DNA of 64,000 nucleotides from Halomarina salina (GTDB taxonomy: Archaea; Halobacteriota; Halobacteria; Halobacteriales; Haloarculaceae), in assembly GCF_023074835.1 (NCBI RefSeq), contig NZ_JALLGW010000001.1, forward strand, positions 248,001 to 312,000, in the 5' to 3' direction. The position numbers and the translations under genes are program-made. Of the stretch, positions 3,501 to 58,500 are shown piece by piece. The notes beneath the pieces are model-generated. The model had not been told where the DNA came from. It saw nothing but the letters and a program-made list of their open reading frames with translations, and searched no databases. Position 1 is the stretch's first letter. The number at the start of each line of letters is the position of its first letter.

Positions 3501-3742
3501 TACCCGTGTCCGGCCACGTTTGCGTTAGGACGGCCTAAAACAGCGGAATTCGGCACTTGCGGTACGGTGAGCGTACACAACCCGCACGAACGTTCACGAG
3601 AGATGTGTGGGTGTCCATACCGCACGACAGAGCAGGGGCCGCCCGAGTGACCGACAGCGAGAGCGGGAGTTCAGTCATACTGAACGAATCGCCACGCCGG
3701 TCGAACCAGTACCGTCTTGTCGCATCCCTCGTCAGGTCGGCC

Positions 3743-4219
3743 ATGTTCCGAAGCGGCGCGTTCGTCGCCGAGCAGTGTGACCCGATCCGCGAGCACCAGG
3801 TCCAGCCAAACGGCCTCGACCTGACGCTCGACGCGGTGTTCGAGCAGGTCGGACCGGGCCGCATCGAGAGAGGCGGGAAGCAGGTCGGCGAGCGGACACG
3901 GGTCGAGTCGCTGTCGGGACCCGACGACGCGACGTACCGGCTCTCGCCGGGGGCGTACGTCGTCCGCTACGAGCAGACGATTCGCGTTCCCGCGGACCAC
4001 GTCGGGTTCGTCTACCCCCGGTCGTCGCTCCTGCGCAACTCGGCGATGCTCAACACGGCCGTCTGGGACGCGGGCTACGAGGGCCGCGGCGAGGGACTGC
4101 TACAGGTGGGGCACGAACTGGAACTGGAGGAGAGCGCGCGCGTCGCGCAACTCGTCTTCGCCCGCGCGGAGCACGAGGAGACGTACGACGGCGACTACCA
4201 GGGCGAGAACGTCGAGTGA
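3743..4219 (+). CDS. dut: dUTP diphosphatase / dCTP deaminase superfamily protein
   Basis: 158 residues. Members hydrolyse dUTP to dUMP and pyrophosphate or deaminate dCTP, keeping uracil out of DNA. The PRSSLLRNSAML stretch corresponds to the phosphate-binding R-S-S-L motif, NTAVWDAGYEGRGEGLLQV to the uracil/deoxyribose pocket, and VAQLVFARAE to the final core strand. Haloarchaeal proteins of this length are usually annotated as dUTPase; I cannot exclude a deaminase. The frame is open further up (to 3557), but MFRSGAFV at 3743 matches the family N-terminus. Confidence 0.8.
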   Translation: MFRSGAFVAEQCDPIREHQVQPNGLDLTLDAVFEQVGPGRIERGGKQVGERTRVESLSGPDDATYRLSPGAYVVRYEQTIRVPADHVGFVYPRSSLLRNSAMLNTAVWDAGYEGRGEGLLQVGHELELEESARVAQLVFARAEHEETYDGDYQGENVE

Positions 4220-50239: not shown

Positions 50240-52462
50240 ATGACCGATTCGAACTGTCTCTCGGAAGTGACAGTACCCGCGCCGCTCCCGCCGGACGACC
50301 CCGACGCGTGGTACGCGCCGGACGTTCGCCGACAGGAGGCGGTCCACCCGGGCGTCGTCGTCACCGTCCGGGGCGAGCGCGACGGGTTCGAGTACGAGAC
50401 ACGGACGCCGTCGCTCTCGGCGGCCGGTCACGACGCACTGGCGGACGTGGAGTCGTACTTCGAGGGGGCGAGCGTCGAGCGACCGCTCACCCGCGAGGGC
50501 GCGGCCGAGCGGATGGCCGACGGGTTCGCCCCGAAGTACGACCGGGCGATAGACCGACTGACGGACCTCACGCCCGCGATGCGTCGCCGACTGGAGTACC
50601 ACGCGCTCGCGCGGGTGACGTGTCTCGGGGCGCTGACGCCGCACGCACTCGACGACAGCGTCGAGGTCGCCGAGGAGCGAGACGGCGAGGTCGTCGTCCA
50701 CACGGAGTCGTTCGCTCCCGCGCGGACTGGGCTGACCGACGCGCCCTTCGCCGACCGGTTCGCCAACGAGCGCATCGCGCGCTACACCGTCCCGTTCCTC
50801 GACTTCGACGTGCCCGTGGTGCTCTACCGCGAACACGTCCTCGGCGCGGACCCGTTCACGACGAAGTACGCCGTCAGGGAACCGGACCTGCTGCCCGGCG
50901 ACCGCGAGCGCATCGAGGAGTGCAAGGAGCGCATCTGGGAGGGACGGGTCGACGGCGTGGTCGAAGAGGCCGACCGGGCCGCGTTCGTCCGTGGCCGCGC
51001 CGAGCGCGTCCTCTCCCGTCGACTCACCGCCGACGGGACGAAGGCGTGGCTCGACGCGACGCGGTACCGACTGCGGTCGGTGCTGGCCGAGTACGACCTC
51101 GCCGTCCCGCCGGTCGACGACCAGTACGCCCCCGACCGACTGGACGACCTCGCCTACTACGTCCTCCGTGACTACGTCGGCTACGGGAAGCTGACCATCC
51201 CCATCCGCGACGGCCGACTGGAGGACGTGGAGGCCAACCGCGTCGGCGAACGCGTCAAGGTGGTCCCGCGAGGCGTCGACGAGCGCGTCCCGACGAACCT
51301 CGCGTTCGAGGACGAGACGGCGTTCGTCAACGTCGTCACCCAGCTCGCGGCCGCGGACGGCGTCGAGGTGAACGCCTCCACCCCCAGCGCGAAGGTGAAC
51401 CTCAATCCGGAGCGCGTCGCTGGCGGGAGCGACGACGCCACGCAGGACGTCGACGAGACCATCCGCTGTGCCGTCGCGCTCCCGACCATCAGCGAAGGCG
51501 GCCCGCACATCTCCATCCGGAAGCAGTCCCGCGACCCGCTGACGCCCGTGGACCTCGTCCGGGACGGTAGCCTCCCGACCGAACTCGTGACGCTGCTCTG
51601 GTTGCTGTACGAACACCACGGCGTCGTCCTGTTCGCCGGACCGACCGGCGTCGGGAAGACGACGCTCCTCAACGCCCACGTCCCGTTCATCCCGTACGAC
51701 GACCGCCCGGTCAGCATCGACGAGGGCTCTCGGGAGGTCAGACTGCCCCACGAAACGGGCGTCTCCCTCCAGACCCGCGACCACGAGAGCGGCTACAAGC
51801 AGGTGTCGATGGCCGACCTGATGACCGAGACGAACTATCTGAACCCCGACGTGGAGATAATCGCCGAGATAAACACGCCCGCGTCGTTCGAGACGTTCGG
51901 CGAGGTGCTGGCGACGGGCCACGGCGTCCTCGGGACGACCCACGCGGAGGACGTCGAGAAACTCGTCAACCGCGTCATCGAGCAGGGCCTGCCCCCGCAC
52001 CTGCTCGCCGAACTGGACCTCGTCGTCTTCCCGCGACGCAACGACGGGGAGCGCTACGTCGGTCAGGCGGTCGAACTCGTCGGCGAGGACGACCACCACG
52101 ACGGCGTCGTCGACCGACCGGGCGCGACGGTCCACTACAACACCGTCTTCGAACGGACGACCGACGGCGGGTTCGACGTGCAGTTCGGTCCCGATTCGCC
52201 GGGCCACTCGCGGACCATCGAGCGCATCGCGGACCGCACCGACCGGACCGCCGAGGCCGTCGAGTCGGAGTTCCGCGAGAAACACCGCTACGTCCAGTAC
52301 CTCGTCCGGGAGGGCGTCGACGACGCCGACGACCTGTTCGGCTTCCTCGCCGACCTGCGGGCCAACGAGACGGCGACGGTCGAACGCGCGGCGGCAGACC
52401 GCCGTGCCACGGACGCTGCGGTCGAACCTGAGCACAGAGAGCGGGTGCCGTACGAGGAGTAG
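50240..52462 (+). CDS. Type IV pilus/secretion system ATPase (PilB/TadA/FlaI type)
   Basis: 740 residues. Walker A GPTGVGKTT at about 467-475, Walker B/Asp box EIIAEINTPASF at about 538-549, and THAEDVEKLVNRVIEQGLP for the His box. The N-terminal domain (about 1-400) is longer than in bacterial PilB and typical for haloarchaeal pil operons. It should power pilin assembly. A TATA-like gttttaaaat lies about 29 bases before the ATG. The partner membrane protein normally next to it is 4.2 kb away (56629), separated by unrelated genes. Confidence 0.92.
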   Translation: MTDSNCLSEVTVPAPLPPDDPDAWYAPDVRRQEAVHPGVVVTVRGERDGFEYETRTPSLSAAGHDALADVESYFEGASVERPLTREGAAERMADGFAPKYDRAIDRLTDLTPAMRRRLEYHALARVTCLGALTPHALDDSVEVAEERDGEVVVHTESFAPARTGLTDAPFADRFANERIARYTVPFLDFDVPVVLYREHVLGADPFTTKYAVREPDLLPGDRERIEECKERIWEGRVDGVVEEADRAAFVRGRAERVLSRRLTADGTKAWLDATRYRLRSVLAEYDLAVPPVDDQYAPDRLDDLAYYVLRDYVGYGKLTIPIRDGRLEDVEANRVGERVKVVPRGVDERVPTNLAFEDETAFVNVVTQLAAADGVEVNASTPSAKVNLNPERVAGGSDDATQDVDETIRCAVALPTISEGGPHISIRKQSRDPLTPVDLVRDGSLPTELVTLLWLLYEHHGVVLFAGPTGVGKTTLLNAHVPFIPYDDRPVSIDEGSREVRLPHETGVSLQTRDHESGYKQVSMADLMTETNYLNPDVEIIAEINTPASFETFGEVLATGHGVLGTTHAEDVEKLVNRVIEQGLPPHLLAELDLVVFPRRNDGERYVGQAVELVGEDDHHDGVVDRPGATVHYNTVFERTTDGGFDVQFGPDSPGHSRTIERIADRTDRTAEAVESEFREKHRYVQYLVREGVDDADDLFGFLADLRANETATVERAAADRRATDAAVEPEHRERVPYEE

Positions 52463-52945: not shown

Positions 52946-53162
52946 CCGGGGAGGCGGTCCCCGCGTCCCGACGAGGCTCACCGTAGCGACTCTCGCGCCC
53001 GTCCTCGAACCCAGGAACCCACCAGAACTGCGGGACGACTGTGTCTACTCGTCATCTGGCACCGAACCATGTTCATAGTTACCGTGGAACGGATATATTA
53101 CACAACATCATTGTACACATTTTTTAGAAAAATTTTCGTTTAGATGCGGTGAACGGTTAGGT

Positions 53163-53297
53163 ATGTCCGATGGACATTCCGTCAAGTCGTACGTCGCACA
53201 GCACCCCAAACTCGTCGGCATGCTGTTCACCGCCATGCTGTTCGGCAGCCAGCTCGGTACCGTCGCCGCCGACGGCAGCACGCACGTCGGCCCCTAG
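53163..53297 (+). CDS. 44-residue membrane peptide (DUF7503-like)
   Basis: The frame reads MSDGHSVKSYVAQHPKLV... and ends ...THVGP before TAG at 53295-53297. Residues 15-34 are hydrophobic (VGMLFTAMLFGSQLGTVAA) and could be one membrane helix or a signal peptide with AA-x cleavage. It agrees with tiny haloarchaeal proteins of the 'xxxxPK-hydrophobic-G' pattern (DUF7503 as I recall). An AT-rich promoter block (53119-53145) lies upstream, so it is expressed on its own. The stop is fifteen bases from the stop of the CHAT gene, convergent. Confidence 0.65.
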   Translation: MSDGHSVKSYVAQHPKLVGMLFTAMLFGSQLGTVAADGSTHVGP

Positions 53298-53312
53298 AGT
53301 CGACGTCGAGAA

Positions 53313-55406
53313 TCAGCCGAACGGGACGTCTTCTGCGGCGATGCTGTCACCCCAGTAGAGACAGCCGTCGAACCGGACGGGCACCGACTGCGCCGTCTGG
53401 AGCAATTCGCGGAGTTCGCCGGCGTCGGCCACCCTACTCGTGATGTGTCCGGAGTTCAGGTAGAACGTCGTGTTCGACCCCATGTACGGCGTGTAGGTCG
53501 CCCCCAGCGGGGCCTGACGGGAGGGGTACCCGTAGTACTCCACCCGGAACGCGTCGTCGGTCTGCTCGATATCGTAGCGCAACGCGGTCCCGTCGCTGGT
53601 CGTCGTCACGGCCGCGTTGCCGTCGCCGACGATGACGTACTGGCGGCCGGTGGTCGTCTCCGACCCGACGACGTCCAGCGCACCCCCCAGCGAGAATCCG
53701 TTGTTCAACAGGCGTGCAATCTGTCGGCCCACGGTCGTCGCTGGCGAGTTCGCGACCGTCGAGAGGGTGACGACACCGCCGATGGCACCGCCGTCGACCA
53801 GCGCCCGGCCCTGCGCGTACGACCGACACGCGTTGAGTATGAACGCCCGCATCCCGACCGTCTCCAGCGTGCGAGCGTCGAGGAACCCGTCCGCACACTG
53901 GAGGCCCGCTTCCGTCACGTGGCCGATGTAGTGGAGGAGGTCGTGGTCGGACTGGAGGAGGGCACGGGTCTCCGCGACGGTCTGCTCCTCGTGGATCTCG
54001 ACGTCCATCTCGATGAACTCCCGGAGGCCGTAGATCTCGCTCACCGAGCGTTCGTCGCGCATCTCCGGGGCGTTCGCCACCACCTGCACCTGGACGGGGC
54101 CCTCGCCGACCGGGTCGAGTCGCCGTTCACAGGCCGCGGCGGTCGGCTTCGACGCGCCGATGTGGACCCCCTCGCCGACCCACGCGTGTTCGATGGTGTC
54201 GACGGGGTCGGCCCCGACGAGTCGTGGCTGGGCCGCCTCGGTCGACTGGAACTCCTGGACGGTGCCCGACGGCTCCGCGCGGGAGAACTCCCGGAGACTG
54301 TCGGCGAACGCGTCGTCGGCCGAGACCGACGACTCCGTGGCTCGCGGCACGCGGACGTGCGCGAGGTCGTACGCCGCGAACGGGAGGAAGGCGGCGTGGC
54401 GGGCCGCCGGTTCGACGTCGGCGGTCAGTTTCCACCCCGGACGGACGTCGGCGATTCGGTCCCACGGGACGGAGAGGTACGCGTTCACCTGCGTCGCGAG
54501 GTCGGCGTCGTACAGCGCCGGGAAGTCGAGGTCGACCCGCCGCTCGACGACCGACCGCTCGTGGAGGTCGATGGGGTAGAACCCGTCCGTCCGGGTGACG
54601 CAGTCGAACAGGAAGAGCTGTTCCAGCGTCCGACGGACGGTCTGCTCGAAGTCACCAGTCCTCGTCAGCGAGTGTTCGACACCGTCGGCGACCAGCAGGG
54701 GCCGCTCGCCGGGGACGACCGCAGCGTCGAGGTAGTACGCGAGCGAGGCGACCGGGTAGACGTGTTCGAGGGTCGGCGGTACCTCGATGTGGACGGGGGT
54801 ATCCGTCCGTTCGAGTCCGGCAGGTGCCTCGAAAGGACCGTCCTCGACCCTGATGAGCGGGGGGCAGCCCCGAAGCGACGGCCACGACCGTTCGGGAGAG
54901 GTCGTCTTCAGCGCGGAGCCGAAACACGAGACGGCACGCATGACGTCACGCGGGTCGTCGGGGGTCCGGACGGTCGCTTCGGGGTGGTGTTGCAACGACC
55001 GGATGCCGAGTTTGACGGCGGAGCTACCGAACACCAGCACCCGTTCGCCGTCGTCGACGAACGTCTCTATCGGCCCCTCGACGCGGAGGTAACAGATGAA
55101 CCCGAGCGAGAGGACCTGGACGAGGTAGTCGCCGTCGGGGACGCACGCCGACGCTTCGTTGACGGCGTTCGCGACCGGCGTTCCGTCGGGCGTCATGACG
55201 AACACGTCGACCAGTTTCGGGACGCGGAGGTCGCCGGTCTCGACCCGTGCGGCGGCGTCGACCGGGAACCGGAACGCGTCGGTCGAGACGGCGGTCGGCG
55301 GCGCGTCGGGGACGGTGTCGAACTCGACGCTCAGGCCTTCGATGGGGTCGGTCACCAGCAGGTAGCCGCCGGTCGTCTGCCCGATCGAAGGACTCGCGGA
55401 CGCCAT
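53313..55406 (-). CDS. CHAT-domain cysteine protease-like protein
   Basis: 697 residues. The C-terminal third is a CHAT (caspase HetF-associated) domain: catalytic His496 in LLHYIGHVTEAGL and Cys527 in ILNACRSYAQGRALVDGGA; downstream IGGVVTLSTVANSPA is the typical strand after the Cys. Residues 1-420 are mixed beta/alpha with no recognised domain and no membrane helix. Prokaryotic CHAT proteases often cut a partner after a trigger, sometimes causing cell death. It follows the RecA-like gene on the same strand (28-base gap), so the two form an operon. Start at 55406 (MASASPS) removes 22 extra residues. Confidence 0.85.
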   Translation of the reverse strand: MASASPSIGQTTGGYLLVTDPIEGLSVEFDTVPDAPPTAVSTDAFRFPVDAAARVETGDLRVPKLVDVFVMTPDGTPVANAVNEASACVPDGDYLVQVLSLGFICYLRVEGPIETFVDDGERVLVFGSSAVKLGIRSLQHHPEATVRTPDDPRDVMRAVSCFGSALKTTSPERSWPSLRGCPPLIRVEDGPFEAPAGLERTDTPVHIEVPPTLEHVYPVASLAYYLDAAVVPGERPLLVADGVEHSLTRTGDFEQTVRRTLEQLFLFDCVTRTDGFYPIDLHERSVVERRVDLDFPALYDADLATQVNAYLSVPWDRIADVRPGWKLTADVEPAARHAAFLPFAAYDLAHVRVPRATESSVSADDAFADSLREFSRAEPSGTVQEFQSTEAAQPRLVGADPVDTIEHAWVGEGVHIGASKPTAAACERRLDPVGEGPVQVQVVANAPEMRDERSVSEIYGLREFIEMDVEIHEEQTVAETRALLQSDHDLLHYIGHVTEAGLQCADGFLDARTLETVGMRAFILNACRSYAQGRALVDGGAIGGVVTLSTVANSPATTVGRQIARLLNNGFSLGGALDVVGSETTTGRQYVIVGDGNAAVTTTSDGTALRYDIEQTDDAFRVEYYGYPSRQAPLGATYTPYMGSNTTFYLNSGHITSRVADAGELRELLQTAQSVPVRFDGCLYWGDSIAAEDVPFG

Positions 55407-55434
55407 CAGTTGGTACCGCTCCGTTGCGATGGCG

Positions 55435-56124
55435 TCACCAACAATCCATCGGCAGCCACCCGGTCTGCTCACCGTAGTTCAGGAGCGTCCAACGATGCTC
55501 AGGAGTGCCGTCGCGGGCTCGCCGGAGTTCGACGTGGACGTCGACGACGTGGAGGAGTGCGTCGCTCGCCGTCGTCCCGGACGGCATGCCGAGGTGGAAG
55601 TGCGCCATCCCGCGGGACCGGACCGTCTCGCCACCGACGACGCCGACGAACCGACGGGTCGCGTCGAGGCCGTGGTCGTCGAGGAGTGGGCGAAGCGTCG
55701 CGACCCCGACCCGGAGTTCGGAGGGTCCGGGCGTGCGGGTCGCCCGGTGCTGTGCGATAGCGTCGACCAGCCGGCGTCTGAACGGCTGCGTGCTGTCCGC
55801 TGCTGGCTGTCCCTGTGCCGCCCGACTCGCGCTGCTCCGGACAGCCGACCGCCGAACCAGGTCGAGGTCGGACGACCCGACGGCACAGGACGTCGGGAGG
55901 TGGTCGGCGACGACTCCGTCGCCGACGTCGGTGACGCCGACTATCCGGTGGCGGCCGTCGGCCGACCCGAACAGCGACCGACTCTCACAGGCGCGAACGG
56001 TCGTCTCGACGTCGCCGGTGAGCAAGAGCCGACAGCCGGACTGCTTCAGTTCCGTCAACGCGTCCCGGAACCGCCGCTGACCGCGAGTATCGTGGCCACC
56101 GTCAGCGCCCGACATGGGGGGCAT
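55435..56124 (-). CDS. RecA-like/DUF7504-like protein, first gene of the CHAT operon
   Basis: 229 residues. The order LLLTGDVETTVRACESRSLFGSADGRHRIVGVTDVGD resembles KaiC/RecA-superfamily proteins in which the Walker A loop is degenerate; no G-x4-GK-S/T is present, so ATP hydrolysis is doubtful. I recall a haloarchaeal family DUF7504 of this kind. A minus-strand TATA-like gatttatgc near 56154 predicts a transcript start just before the ATG at 56124; the ATG at 56115 is also possible. Divergent from the PilC-like gene across 500 bases. Confidence 0.65.
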   Translation of the reverse strand: MPPMSGADGGHDTRGQRRFRDALTELKQSGCRLLLTGDVETTVRACESRSLFGSADGRHRIVGVTDVGDGVVADHLPTSCAVGSSDLDLVRRSAVRSSASRAAQGQPAADSTQPFRRRLVDAIAQHRATRTPGPSELRVGVATLRPLLDDHGLDATRRFVGVVGGETVRSRGMAHFHLGMPSGTTASDALLHVVDVHVELRRARDGTPEHRWTLLNYGEQTGWLPMDCW

Positions 56125-56561: not shown

Positions 56562-56642
56562 ATGAACGCGAACGCCGAACGGGTCGTGCGCTATCGCGAC
56601 TCACGTCCGGGGACCGGTGGGGTGCCCCATGGCCGACACTGA
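56562..56642 (+). CDS. Possible 26-codon upstream frame overlapping the PilC-like start
   Basis: ATG at 56562, reading MNANAERVVRYRDSRPG..., and TGA at 56640-56642. Its end overlaps the ATG of the PilC-like gene (56629) by 14 bases in another frame. It sits at the place where the transcript should begin given the AT-rich box at 56524-56535. It could be a leader peptide that couples translation, or chance. Confidence 0.25.
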   Translation: MNANAERVVRYRDSRPGTGGVPHGRH

Positions 56643-58500
56643 GGGCAGTACGCTCGACCGGAGCCTCTACGCGCTGTTCTCCCGACACACCGACCGCACC
56701 CGGCACGACCGGGACCGGCGTCGCTACCGGGCGGCGAACGTCGGGTCGAGTTTCGACGTGTTCCTCGCGCGGGTCTACGGCCTCTCGTGGGTGACGTTTC
56801 TCGCGGTGACGGTCGGTCTCACCGCACTCACGCTGACGGTTCCGACGGCCGTCTGGCGGGCACTCGGCGGGACGCTCCACGCCGCACTTCCGGTGGTGAA
56901 TCGAGTCGGCGCGCCGGACGTACCGCGTCTGTACACCGCCCTCCTCGCGGCACTCGTCGGGGGACTGCTCGCCAAGCGGGGCGTCGTAACGGGCAGCGGC
57001 GTCTACCTTCGCTGGACCGCCAGCGCCCGTCGGAGCGACATCGAACGGACGCTACCGGGTGCGGTCCGGTACCTGCGGGCGCTCTCCGCCGGGAGCGACG
57101 GCCACAGGACGATGCTCCGGAAGGTCGCCGAACAGGACGCGTACGGCGAGACGGCCGTCGCGTTCCGGAGCGTGCTGAACCGGGCGGCGCTCACGGGCAG
57201 CCTCGACTCGGGGCTGGAGATGGTCGCGCGCGATACCCCCTCGCGGGACCTGCTGTCGCCGTTCCTCCTGAAGTTCCGCGAGCACGCCGCACAGGGTGAG
57301 GACGCGCTCGGCGCGTACCTCGACCTGGAGTCCCGGATGCTCTCGCACCGGCAAGCGCGGGCACGACAGCGTGCGAGCGACTTCCTCGAACTGCTCGCCG
57401 AACTGTTCATCGTCCTGCTCGTCCTGCCCGCGCTGCTGGTCATCGTGCTGACGGTGATGGCAGTTCTCTCGCCGGGGCTCTCCGCACCCGTGACGACGCC
57501 GTTCGGGTCGACGACGCTCCGGGCCGTGTTCGTCTACGGTGCGGCCGGGTTCTCGTTGCTCGTCGGGGCGGGCGCGGCGTGGCTGGTCGACGCCCTCCGG
57601 CCGCCGGATCAGGCTCCGCCGTCGTACTCGCCCGCGAAGACGGTGACTGGGGTCCTGTCCGGTGCACCGTCGAATCCGGCGAGTGCGGCGCTCGTCTGCG
57701 TCCCCGTCGCGTTGCTCGTCACCGCGGGGTGCTGGTCGCTCGGCTACCACCCGGTGAACGTCGGGCTGTTCGGCTACGTGGCGTTCGGCCTGCCCGTCGG
57801 TCTCGTGGCCGTGCGTCGCGCCCGCCGCGACGACGCGAAGGACCGCGAACTGAAGGACTTCGTCCACGCCGTCGCGGGGCACGTCAGCCTCGGGAAGCCG
57901 TTCTCGGCGGCCGTCGAGCGGGTCGCACGCGACGTCGACCTCGGACCGCTCCAGGCGGACGTCGACGACCTGGCGTTCAACACGAGCCTGATGACCGGCC
58001 GCGGCGCGGACGTGCGCACCGAGGCCCTCGACCAGTTCGTCGAGCGGGTCGGGACGCCGCTGGCCGCCCAGACGATGGGGCTGGTGACCGGCGCGCTCGA
58101 CGTCGGGAGCGACGCCGAAGACGTCTTCGAGACGCTCCAGACAGAAGTTGGCCGCCTCGTGCATGAGCGAAAGGCGCTCCGGTCGTCCCTGATGGTGTAC
58201 GTCGCCGTCGGGTGGACGACGGCGCTGCTCGTCGTCGGCATCACCGTCGCCGTCAACCTCTACGTCCTCGACGGGTTCGCGCAGTTGTCGACCGTCGCCG
58301 ACGGCGGGATGGCGCTGGACCCGAACGCCGTCGACCCGGCCCGCGACCGCCTGCGCTTCTACGTCGTCACGCAGACGACGATGCTCGCGTGTGGCTGGTT
58401 CGCCGGAAGCGCCTCCCGGGGTCGGTACGAGGCGCTGCTCCACTCCTCGCTGCTGGTCGTGCTGACCTACGGCATCTACGCGGGGGTGGGACTGCTGTGA
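56629..58500 (+). CDS. Type II/IV secretion membrane protein (PilC/TadC/FlaJ-like)
   Basis: 623 residues. Two T2SF domains, each with paired membrane helices: first around GAVRYLRALSAGSDGHRTMLRKVAEQDAYGETAVAFRSVLNRA and second around HAVAGHVSLGKPFSAAVERVARDVDLGPLQAD. Eight or more helices in all. It is the inner-membrane platform for the pilus ATPase. Its last four bases overlap the next gene (GTGA), so the five following genes are co-translated. The ATG at 56629 is preferred over GTG 56617. Confidence 0.9.
   Translation: MADTEGSTLDRSLYALFSRHTDRTRHDRDRRRYRAANVGSSFDVFLARVYGLSWVTFLAVTVGLTALTLTVPTAVWRALGGTLHAALPVVNRVGAPDVPRLYTALLAALVGGLLAKRGVVTGSGVYLRWTASARRSDIERTLPGAVRYLRALSAGSDGHRTMLRKVAEQDAYGETAVAFRSVLNRAALTGSLDSGLEMVARDTPSRDLLSPFLLKFREHAAQGEDALGAYLDLESRMLSHRQARARQRASDFLELLAELFIVLLVLPALLVIVLTVMAVLSPGLSAPVTTPFGSTTLRAVFVYGAAGFSLLVGAGAAWLVDALRPPDQAPPSYSPAKTVTGVLSGAPSNPASAALVCVPVALLVTAGCWSLGYHPVNVGLFGYVAFGLPVGLVAVRRARRDDAKDRELKDFVHAVAGHVSLGKPFSAAVERVARDVDLGPLQADVDDLAFNTSLMTGRGADVRTEALDQFVERVGTPLAAQTMGLVTGALDVGSDAEDVFETLQTEVGRLVHERKALRSSLMVYVAVGWTTALLVVGITVAVNLYVLDGFAQLSTVADGGMALDPNAVDPARDRLRFYVVTQTTMLACGWFAGSASRGRYEALLHSSLLVVLTYGIYAGVGLL

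Follow-up and report, generated by a model that had tools for sequence, protein, structure and literature searches.

What ties a peptide of 44 residues to a protease-like protein of 697, and why are the genes for both kept end to end? The question is raised by a locus in a window of 64,000 nucleotides from Halomarina salina (RefSeq assembly GCF_023074835.1, contig NZ_JALLGW010000001.1, positions 248,001 to 312,000; positions below are those of the window), where a small peptide gene converges on the gene for a protease-like protein of predicted caspase fold, which in turn lies beside a gene for a RecA-like protein. Comparison with related loci shows that the strongest feature of this cassette is a hypervariable block that joins the tail of the peptide to the C-terminal domain of the protease, a feature absent from an earlier reading of the window made without database searches (the sequence-only reading). 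Taken with the sequence patterns described below, this suggests that the cassette may be an archaeal system of polymorphic peptide-protease recognition, serving self-recognition or signalling.

The three open reading frames named in the sequence-only reading were verified, and its tail-to-tail arrangement of the peptide and CHAT genes was borne out, with stop codons 15 bp apart; the CHAT start is separated by 28 bp from the RecA-like gene upstream on the same strand. The parts of the locus are as follows.

53120..53138, plus strand: A/T-rich element TTTTTTAGAAAAATTTTCG, putative promoter of the peptide gene, with a spacing that fits a leaderless mRNA
53163..53297, plus strand: peptide precursor, 44 aa, Pfam DUF7503 (open reading frame and profile match)
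53271..53294, plus strand: predicted mature tail DGSTHVGP, following TVAA (AxA motif and tail register in 69 peptides; hypervariable in relatives)
53298..53312, no strand: gap of 15 bp between the convergent stop codons, falling within the hypervariable block of relatives
53313..55406, minus strand: CHAT/separase-type (clan CD) cysteine protease-like protein, 697 aa (open reading frame and AlphaFold2 fold)
53316..53588, minus strand: C-terminal domain of the protease, about residues 607-697, candidate peptide-recognition domain (homology to the hypervariable C-terminus; divergence jump at its boundary in Halorubrum)
53826..53828, minus strand: codon of catalytic Cys527 (sequence; invariance in homologues)
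53919..53921, minus strand: codon of catalytic His496 (sequence; invariance in homologues)
55435..56124, minus strand: KaiC/RecA-fold protein, 229 aa, DUF7504, lacking the Walker A lysine, an optional member (open reading frame, Pfam, AlphaFold2 and Foldseek)

Linkage of the peptide and protease genes

Searched with the protease, 84,980 species genomes yielded 314 relatives, of which the best 80, all from haloarchaea, supplied the loci described next. These 80 loci contained 71 DUF7503 genes, nearly all directly downstream of the protease gene and tail to tail with it; the median stop-to-stop gap was 1 bp, and the two genes overlapped in 22 of 69 cases. Association was measured in 59 genomes drawn evenly from the order; 45 of them carried the protease (1-8 copies) and 43 carried DUF7503 above the cut-off. 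Every one of the 65 DUF7503 genes in these genomes lay within 2.2 kb of a protease gene, compared with about 0.4 expected by chance, so that the protease-peptide association of the sequence-only reading goes well beyond chance. All but one of the 65 were convergent with the protease. The exception is a rearranged copy of the cassette (copy D) in Halomarina salina, whose genome holds about five to six copies, two of them (B and C) in the three-gene order of the window and two others (E and F) consisting of peptide and protease.

Among 120 genomes drawn from across the phylum, DUF7503 occurred only in members of the order. One other family has a distant relative of the protease; where its downstream side could be read, no Gly-Pro peptide of the DUF7503 kind was present. 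Within the order, Halobacterium salinarum carries the pair (locus L066), and the Haloferax volcanii control genome gave matches above cut-off to both DUF7503 and DUF7504.

A hypervariable block spans the 3' ends of both genes

The block is seen most clearly in Halorubrum, where the cassette is single-copy in 46 of 52 genomes and where all 10 loci with long flanks share one chromosomal site and one neighbouring gene. Codons 1-34 of the Halorubrum peptide are nearly invariant and are followed by five hypervariable residues and then [PA]GP. DNA identity is 85-96% in the peptide body and mostly 80-95% in the catalytic core of the protease, whereas it is 33-72% across the peptide tail, the intergenic gap and the final ~85-90 codons of the protease gene. 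Codon by codon, across 42 Halorubrum loci, synonymous divergence stepped up from ~0.15-0.5 to 0.7-0.85 where the caspase fold ends. A measure that is robust to misalignment, in which only codons for identical residues are counted, gave differences of 0.193 for gyrB, 0.210 for the middle of CHAT, 0.214 for the core and 0.176 for the peptide body, compared with 0.616 for the CHAT C-terminal domain and 0.679 for the last 8 peptide codons. These last two exceeded gyrB in 100% and 98% of species pairs, respectively. Divergence in the flanks correlated with that of gyrB, whereas divergence in the block did not. An unusual DNA constraint on the peptide body was ruled out, as the body runs at the gyrB rate. 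The block of ~300 bp, made up of the peptide tail, the intergenic gap and the CHAT C-terminal domain, is thus saturated at synonymous sites in Halorubrum, and it is either much older or much faster evolving than its flanks.

The edges of the block fall at the codon after the AxAN motif in the peptide and, in CHAT, where the caspase fold finishes. The block is lopsided, with ~270 bp in CHAT and 24 bp in the peptide. The 42 Halorubrum loci formed 35 C-terminal allele clusters at 75% identity. Import of alleles from other genera was not seen, all Halorubrum C-terminal domains falling within the pool of the genus. The same step recurs in genus g17, Halosimplex and Haladaptatus, and more weakly in Halobacterium.

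The two variable ends also vary together. Distances between tails and between C-terminal domains were correlated in Halorubrum (Mantel r 0.34), and the partial correlation given the core (r 0.31) was reached by 0 of 2000 permutations, compared with a partial r of 0.11 (p 0.07) for tail and core given the C-terminal domain. Among close pairs from several genera, many of them non-independent, tail and C-terminal domain had a Spearman correlation of 0.48 (p 0.0004) and tail and core did not covary. Individual comparisons illustrate the range. Halococcus proteases with the same tail have C-terminal domains that are 95% identical. The window locus and its H. oriensis orthologue (L040) are 88% identical in the core and 71% in the C-terminal domain, with tails DGSTHV and EGCTHV, and Halomarina copy B and a Halomarina rubra locus (L042) are 90% identical in the core and 40% in the C-terminal domain, with unrelated tails (QCASNN and SAGTIV).

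The peptide resembles an exported precursor with a fixed Gly-Pro end

The window peptide matches Pfam DUF7503 (PF24335) with 57.9 bits against a cut-off of 27. Across 69 peptides the family follows the approximate pattern YLxEHP[KR]MxGVLFTxLLLLSQAGxAAA, then a variable tail, then an invariant C-terminal Gly-Pro; the exact Gly-Pro end is missing in 2 of the 71 members (L072, L091). A small-x-small motif leaves 7-12 residues in 69 of 69 peptides, in 63 of them as a strict A/V-x-A. All four glycine codons, all four proline codons and all three stop codons occur at the end of these genes. A DNA or terminator constraint was therefore ruled out as the source of the ending, which is under selection as protein.

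The ending also reaches beyond DUF7503. Small convergent open reading frames after a protease gene ended in Gly-Pro in 87 of 347 cases (25%), compared with 54 of 10946 background open reading frames (0.5%), and these included peptides otherwise unrelated to DUF7503. Where no peptide was recognisable by Pfam, an unannotated convergent Gly-Pro reading frame was often present at the equivalent place, in some cases non-hydrophobic; examples end in ARAKRVSTYGGP or GASACTYSGP, or are 20-residue reading frames ending GGSGYTGP. Since non-hydrophobic peptides with the same ending occupy the same place, a transmembrane helix was ruled out as the conserved function. The idea of a pore-forming membrane peptide is likewise not supported: the hydropathy of DUF7503 is modest, its layout is like that of a signal peptide, some loci have non-hydrophobic peptides, and the sole invariant is the C-terminal Gly-Pro. 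By their sequence, DUF7503 products resemble signal-peptide precursors that would leave a short mature peptide at the C-terminus, and not membrane effectors.

The sequence-only reading had the peptide gene separately promoted, which is plausible because an A/T-rich element precedes the peptide genes in 77 loci, with a positional consensus of about TTTAGAwAAATTnAAT at about -45 to -29 and a putative promoter role.

Two variants of the peptide gene were also observed. Gly-Pro peptides of one protease subfamily (L135, L136, L140, L132, L137) are basic; their tail, KRxSTYxGP, is conserved and their middle varies, a layout that is the reverse of Halorubrum DUF7503. In a Halobacterium-like genome (G056), locus L169 has two tandem DUF7503 genes with identical predicted peptides (3504-3800, 3523-3663) and one protease.

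The protease is a predicted clan CD enzyme with a conserved dyad

Neither Pfam nor NCBIfam matched the window protease at E<=1, the proteases of L066, L135 and L161 matched no Pfam family at E<=0.01, and a search of PDB sequences with the protease family profile gave no match at E<=1, so that fold comparison was needed. The AlphaFold2 model (pLDDT 89.9) has a beta-rich N-terminus and a clan CD (caspase-like alpha/beta) fold, with structural matches to gingipain (Z 18.3), separase (17.4), SAVED-CHAT (16.1), Craspase (14.2) and caspases (~10). The CHAT label of the sequence-only reading is therefore retained for the fold only, as predicted fold and structural matches agree with it but the sequence profiles do not; some relatives are annotated as 'caspase family protein' or 'CHAT domain-containing protein'. 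All 97 peptide-linked homologues retain His496 and Cys527, in the contexts HxxGH and NxC, and the active site that had been described as intact is thus also conserved. By predicted fold and His-Cys dyad the window protein is a clan CD protease, with proteolysis as its predicted activity.

The protease shares its fold and dyad with the CHAT, separase, gingipain and caspase members of clan CD and differs from them in lacking a Pfam CHAT match and in having Asn553 in place of the Asp of the CHAT motif WxVxD, which we take to be the S1-pocket residue. Asn occupies this position in 96% of peptide-linked members, whereas Asp is found in 6 of 12 peptide-free type II homologues, which hints at an altered cleavage specificity. 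Proteases with and without a peptide differ at N-terminal residues (e.g. Arg136, Gly180, Tyr299) and in the C-terminal domain, but the no-peptide clade is too diverged for these differences to carry weight. We know of no report of a hypervariable C-terminal domain and a tiny convergent gene for any clan CD protease.

Several homologues have other surroundings. A second subfamily (L150-L160), with an LNACGS active site and no Gly-Pro peptide, lies directly upstream of a TbsP-type transcriptional regulator in many haloarchaea; the neighbour was identified by Pfam in L152 (6031-6843, plus strand) and by the same C-terminal sequence in the others. A clade comprising L161, L162 and L163 has lost both catalytic residues, has kept the conserved N-terminal region and has no adjoining Gly-Pro peptide. 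Tandem protease-protease pairs with no recognisable peptide occur in Haladaptatus (L069:5344-10019, L075:7878-12288). A search for Gly-Pro reading frames down to 8 codons beside the no-peptide homologues found none that was convincing.

The KaiC/RecA-like protein is optional

The 229-aa protein matches Pfam DUF7504 (PF24336) with 101.4 bits against a cut-off of 27, and its AlphaFold2 model (pLDDT 90.7) has KaiC as its best Foldseek matches. At the position of the Walker A motif GxxxxGK[ST] it has LLTGDVETTVRA, and no Gly-Lys-Thr is conserved across 42 homologues. The protein shares only the KaiC/RecA fold and not the Walker A motif of an active ATPase, in agreement with its earlier description as degenerate.

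By automatic count, DUF7504 was near 39 of 82 protease loci (28 upstream on the same strand, 11 diverging from the peptide) and was absent, or missed by automatic start choice, in the other 43. Most of the many DUF7504 copies in a genome lie elsewhere than at protease loci. The sequence-only reading proposed a three-part system; the pairing of protease and peptide stands, but the RecA-like protein is a frequent and optional companion, and the core of the cassette is therefore protease plus peptide. In the closest pairs checked, the KaiC-like partners showed no acceleration like that of the protease C-terminal domain. At two loci a HalOD1 output domain is fused to DUF7504 directly upstream of the protease (L102:6873-7922, L127:2897-3841), and freestanding HalOD1-like genes were seen near other cassette copies (L034, L172).

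By Pfam, the neighbours of the window cassette are an EamA transporter and T2SSE/T2SSF genes. The latter, for a type IV pilus-like ATPase (T2SSE) and a membrane protein (T2SSF), lie on both sides of the cassette (50240-52462, 56617-58500), which looks as if it had been inserted within one pilus operon.

Discussion

The cassette is probably a ligand-receptor specificity pair of two genes with an optional third, in which the protease has the peptide tail as its cognate regulator or substrate. In this explanation the small gene would encode a precursor with an export-like signal (HP[KR], a short hydrophobic stretch and AxA) and a tail of 7-12 residues with a free Gly-Pro end, and its signal-peptide-like layout would mean that the peptide is exported and processed. 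The partner would be a cytosolic caspase-fold protein consisting of a conserved catalytic core and a C-terminal domain, the latter recognising its cognate tail with the Gly-Pro carboxylate as a putative anchor and specificity encoded in the variable residues. Tail binding may then switch the protease on or off, with the KaiC-fold protein of about half of the loci as a possible adaptor or sensor, and the outcome for the cell may be signalling, kin recognition or regulated growth arrest. As the genes are convergent, their two specificity-coding 3' ends would form one block of ~300 bp that could be replaced in one step, which would account for the preserved tail-to-tail arrangement.

A more specific form of this explanation, which is put forward tentatively, is a native archaeal system of ribosomal-peptide recognition, in which a strain exports a 7-12-mer ending in Gly-Pro that is recognised by its own protease, by way of the hypervariable C-terminal domain, and not by those of other strains. 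In such a system peptide identity, as a mark of self and non-self or of cell density, would decide the activity of a death- or differentiation-type protease.

Several points weigh against the proposed pair. The covariation of tail and C-terminal domain could come from nothing more than the linkage of the two within a single exchanged block. Sampling covered one genome per species, and the divergence described is therefore between species. Some homologues with an intact active site, both tbsP-linked and tandem, have no recognisable Gly-Pro peptide, and the protease can therefore either work without a peptide or use one in trans. The C-terminal domain of the tbsP-linked homologues is also fast, at larger distances. 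No linked receptor or importer for such a peptide was found.

Among other explanations, the best surviving is that of a protease with a dedicated substrate or effector, as the sequence-only reading had it: a signal would pass through the KaiC-like protein to CHAT, which would cleave the small hydrophobic peptide, and the fragment would perturb the membrane or arrest growth in the manner of gasdermins or Craspase/Csx30. The obligate linkage, the intact dyad and the caspase/separase/Craspase fold all agree with this, and CHAT proteases elsewhere act on partners encoded nearby (PMC12881547). However, the peptides have no conserved internal cleavage motif, their only invariant being the extreme C-terminus, and the modest hydropathy, the signal-peptide-like layout and the non-hydrophobic members fit a membrane-active fragment poorly. 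A hypervariable tail shared with the protease C-terminus is left unexplained, and this explanation is considered unlikely.

A toxin-antitoxin-like pair is more doubtful still. Here the peptide would inhibit a harmful protease, or the protease would remove a harmful peptide, and variability would arise through an arms race with viruses or rivals. The peptide was never found without CHAT, genomes have 1-8 copies, and the protease family was found at 33 places in 25 plasmid records, all of which would suit such a pair. By contrast, phage records held no relative of the protease, PADLOC models had no family for any of the three window proteins, and the neighbours at three annotated plasmid loci were mostly metabolic genes rather than defence islands. 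It should also be noted that a cytosolic inhibitor needs no signal-peptide-like architecture.

The main non-functional rival, a mutational hotspot of ~300 bp between converging genes (by transcription conflict or a hypermutable segment) where tail and C-terminal domain merely tolerate change with no cognate recognition, is quite improbable: the block does lie exactly where two transcripts converge, C-terminal domains are faster in no-peptide homologues too, the Halorubrum alleles stay within the genus pool and some Halorubrum pairs are intermediate, but the abrupt edges match functional boundaries, the block is lopsided, Gly-Pro is kept inside it while its codons are randomised, and in Halococcus tail and C-terminal domain evolve together at clock rate.

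The proposed specificity pair has partial parallels in known systems; its logic is like that of agr/comQXPA and Rap-Phr loci, but by the features compared none of its parts is homologous to theirs. In the agr and comQXPA systems of Firmicutes a signalling peptide and the neighbouring part of the partner that recognises it are encoded in one hypervariable segment, with conserved flanks and cognate specificity groups. In the haloarchaeal cassette, too, conserved sequence flanks a hypervariable segment that reaches from the peptide into its partner, the C-terminal domain being the putative binding part, but no AgrB/ComQ and no histidine kinase were found among the neighbours in the window or those annotated at three plasmid loci, and the cassette has a caspase-fold partner, convergent genes and an archaeal host. 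Systems of the RRNPP type (Rap-Phr, PlcR-PapR and arbitrium AimR-AimP) have TPR receptors and co-directional genes, and their precursors of ~40-50 aa, in which an export signal at the N-terminus precedes a short mature peptide at the C-terminus, are encoded beside the gene of a cytosolic partner. This precursor layout fits 69 of 69 DUF7503 peptides, with export predicted, and the cassette also resembles these systems in having several paralogous copies per genome with differing tails; it differs in its caspase rather than TPR fold, its convergent genes and its invariant C-terminal Gly-Pro. Craspase (Cas7-11/Csx29/Csx30) and bacterial gasdermin systems also have a CHAT or caspase-like protease with a partner encoded next to it, whereas the haloarchaeal cassette has no CRISPR parts and no gasdermin, and its partner is of 40-50 aa with a conserved C-terminus. 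The window peptide and KaiC-like protein are members of DUF7503 and DUF7504 above curated cut-offs, both families being of unknown function, and the model descriptions mention neither a caspase-fold protease link nor the Gly-Pro rule or a hypervariable block.

We know of no described system that joins a caspase-fold protease to a hypervariable convergent peptide, and the literature searched had no paper on DUF7503/DUF7504 and none on CHAT domains in haloarchaea. For this reason the combination of parts is regarded as new; its functional reading is provisional.

Very few cell-cell signals are known from archaea. A study from 2025 put the earlier examples of true quorum sensing in archaea at only three, and gave filI as the sole gene with a previously demonstrated role in a pathway of this kind (PMC12240190). 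The disk-forming signal of Haloferax volcanii, described there as a proteinase K-resistant small molecule, is not claimed here to be the cassette peptide. Haloarchaea have also been reported to have strong caspase-like activity to which no gene was assigned, and archaeal genomes were said to be without clear homologues (PMC3615174). A widespread haloarchaeal pair of a caspase-fold protease and a hypervariable peptide bears both on archaeal signalling and on this orphan activity, and makes both testable. It also offers an explanation for a rigid convergent gene order, with two specificity-coding 3' ends on one exchangeable block.

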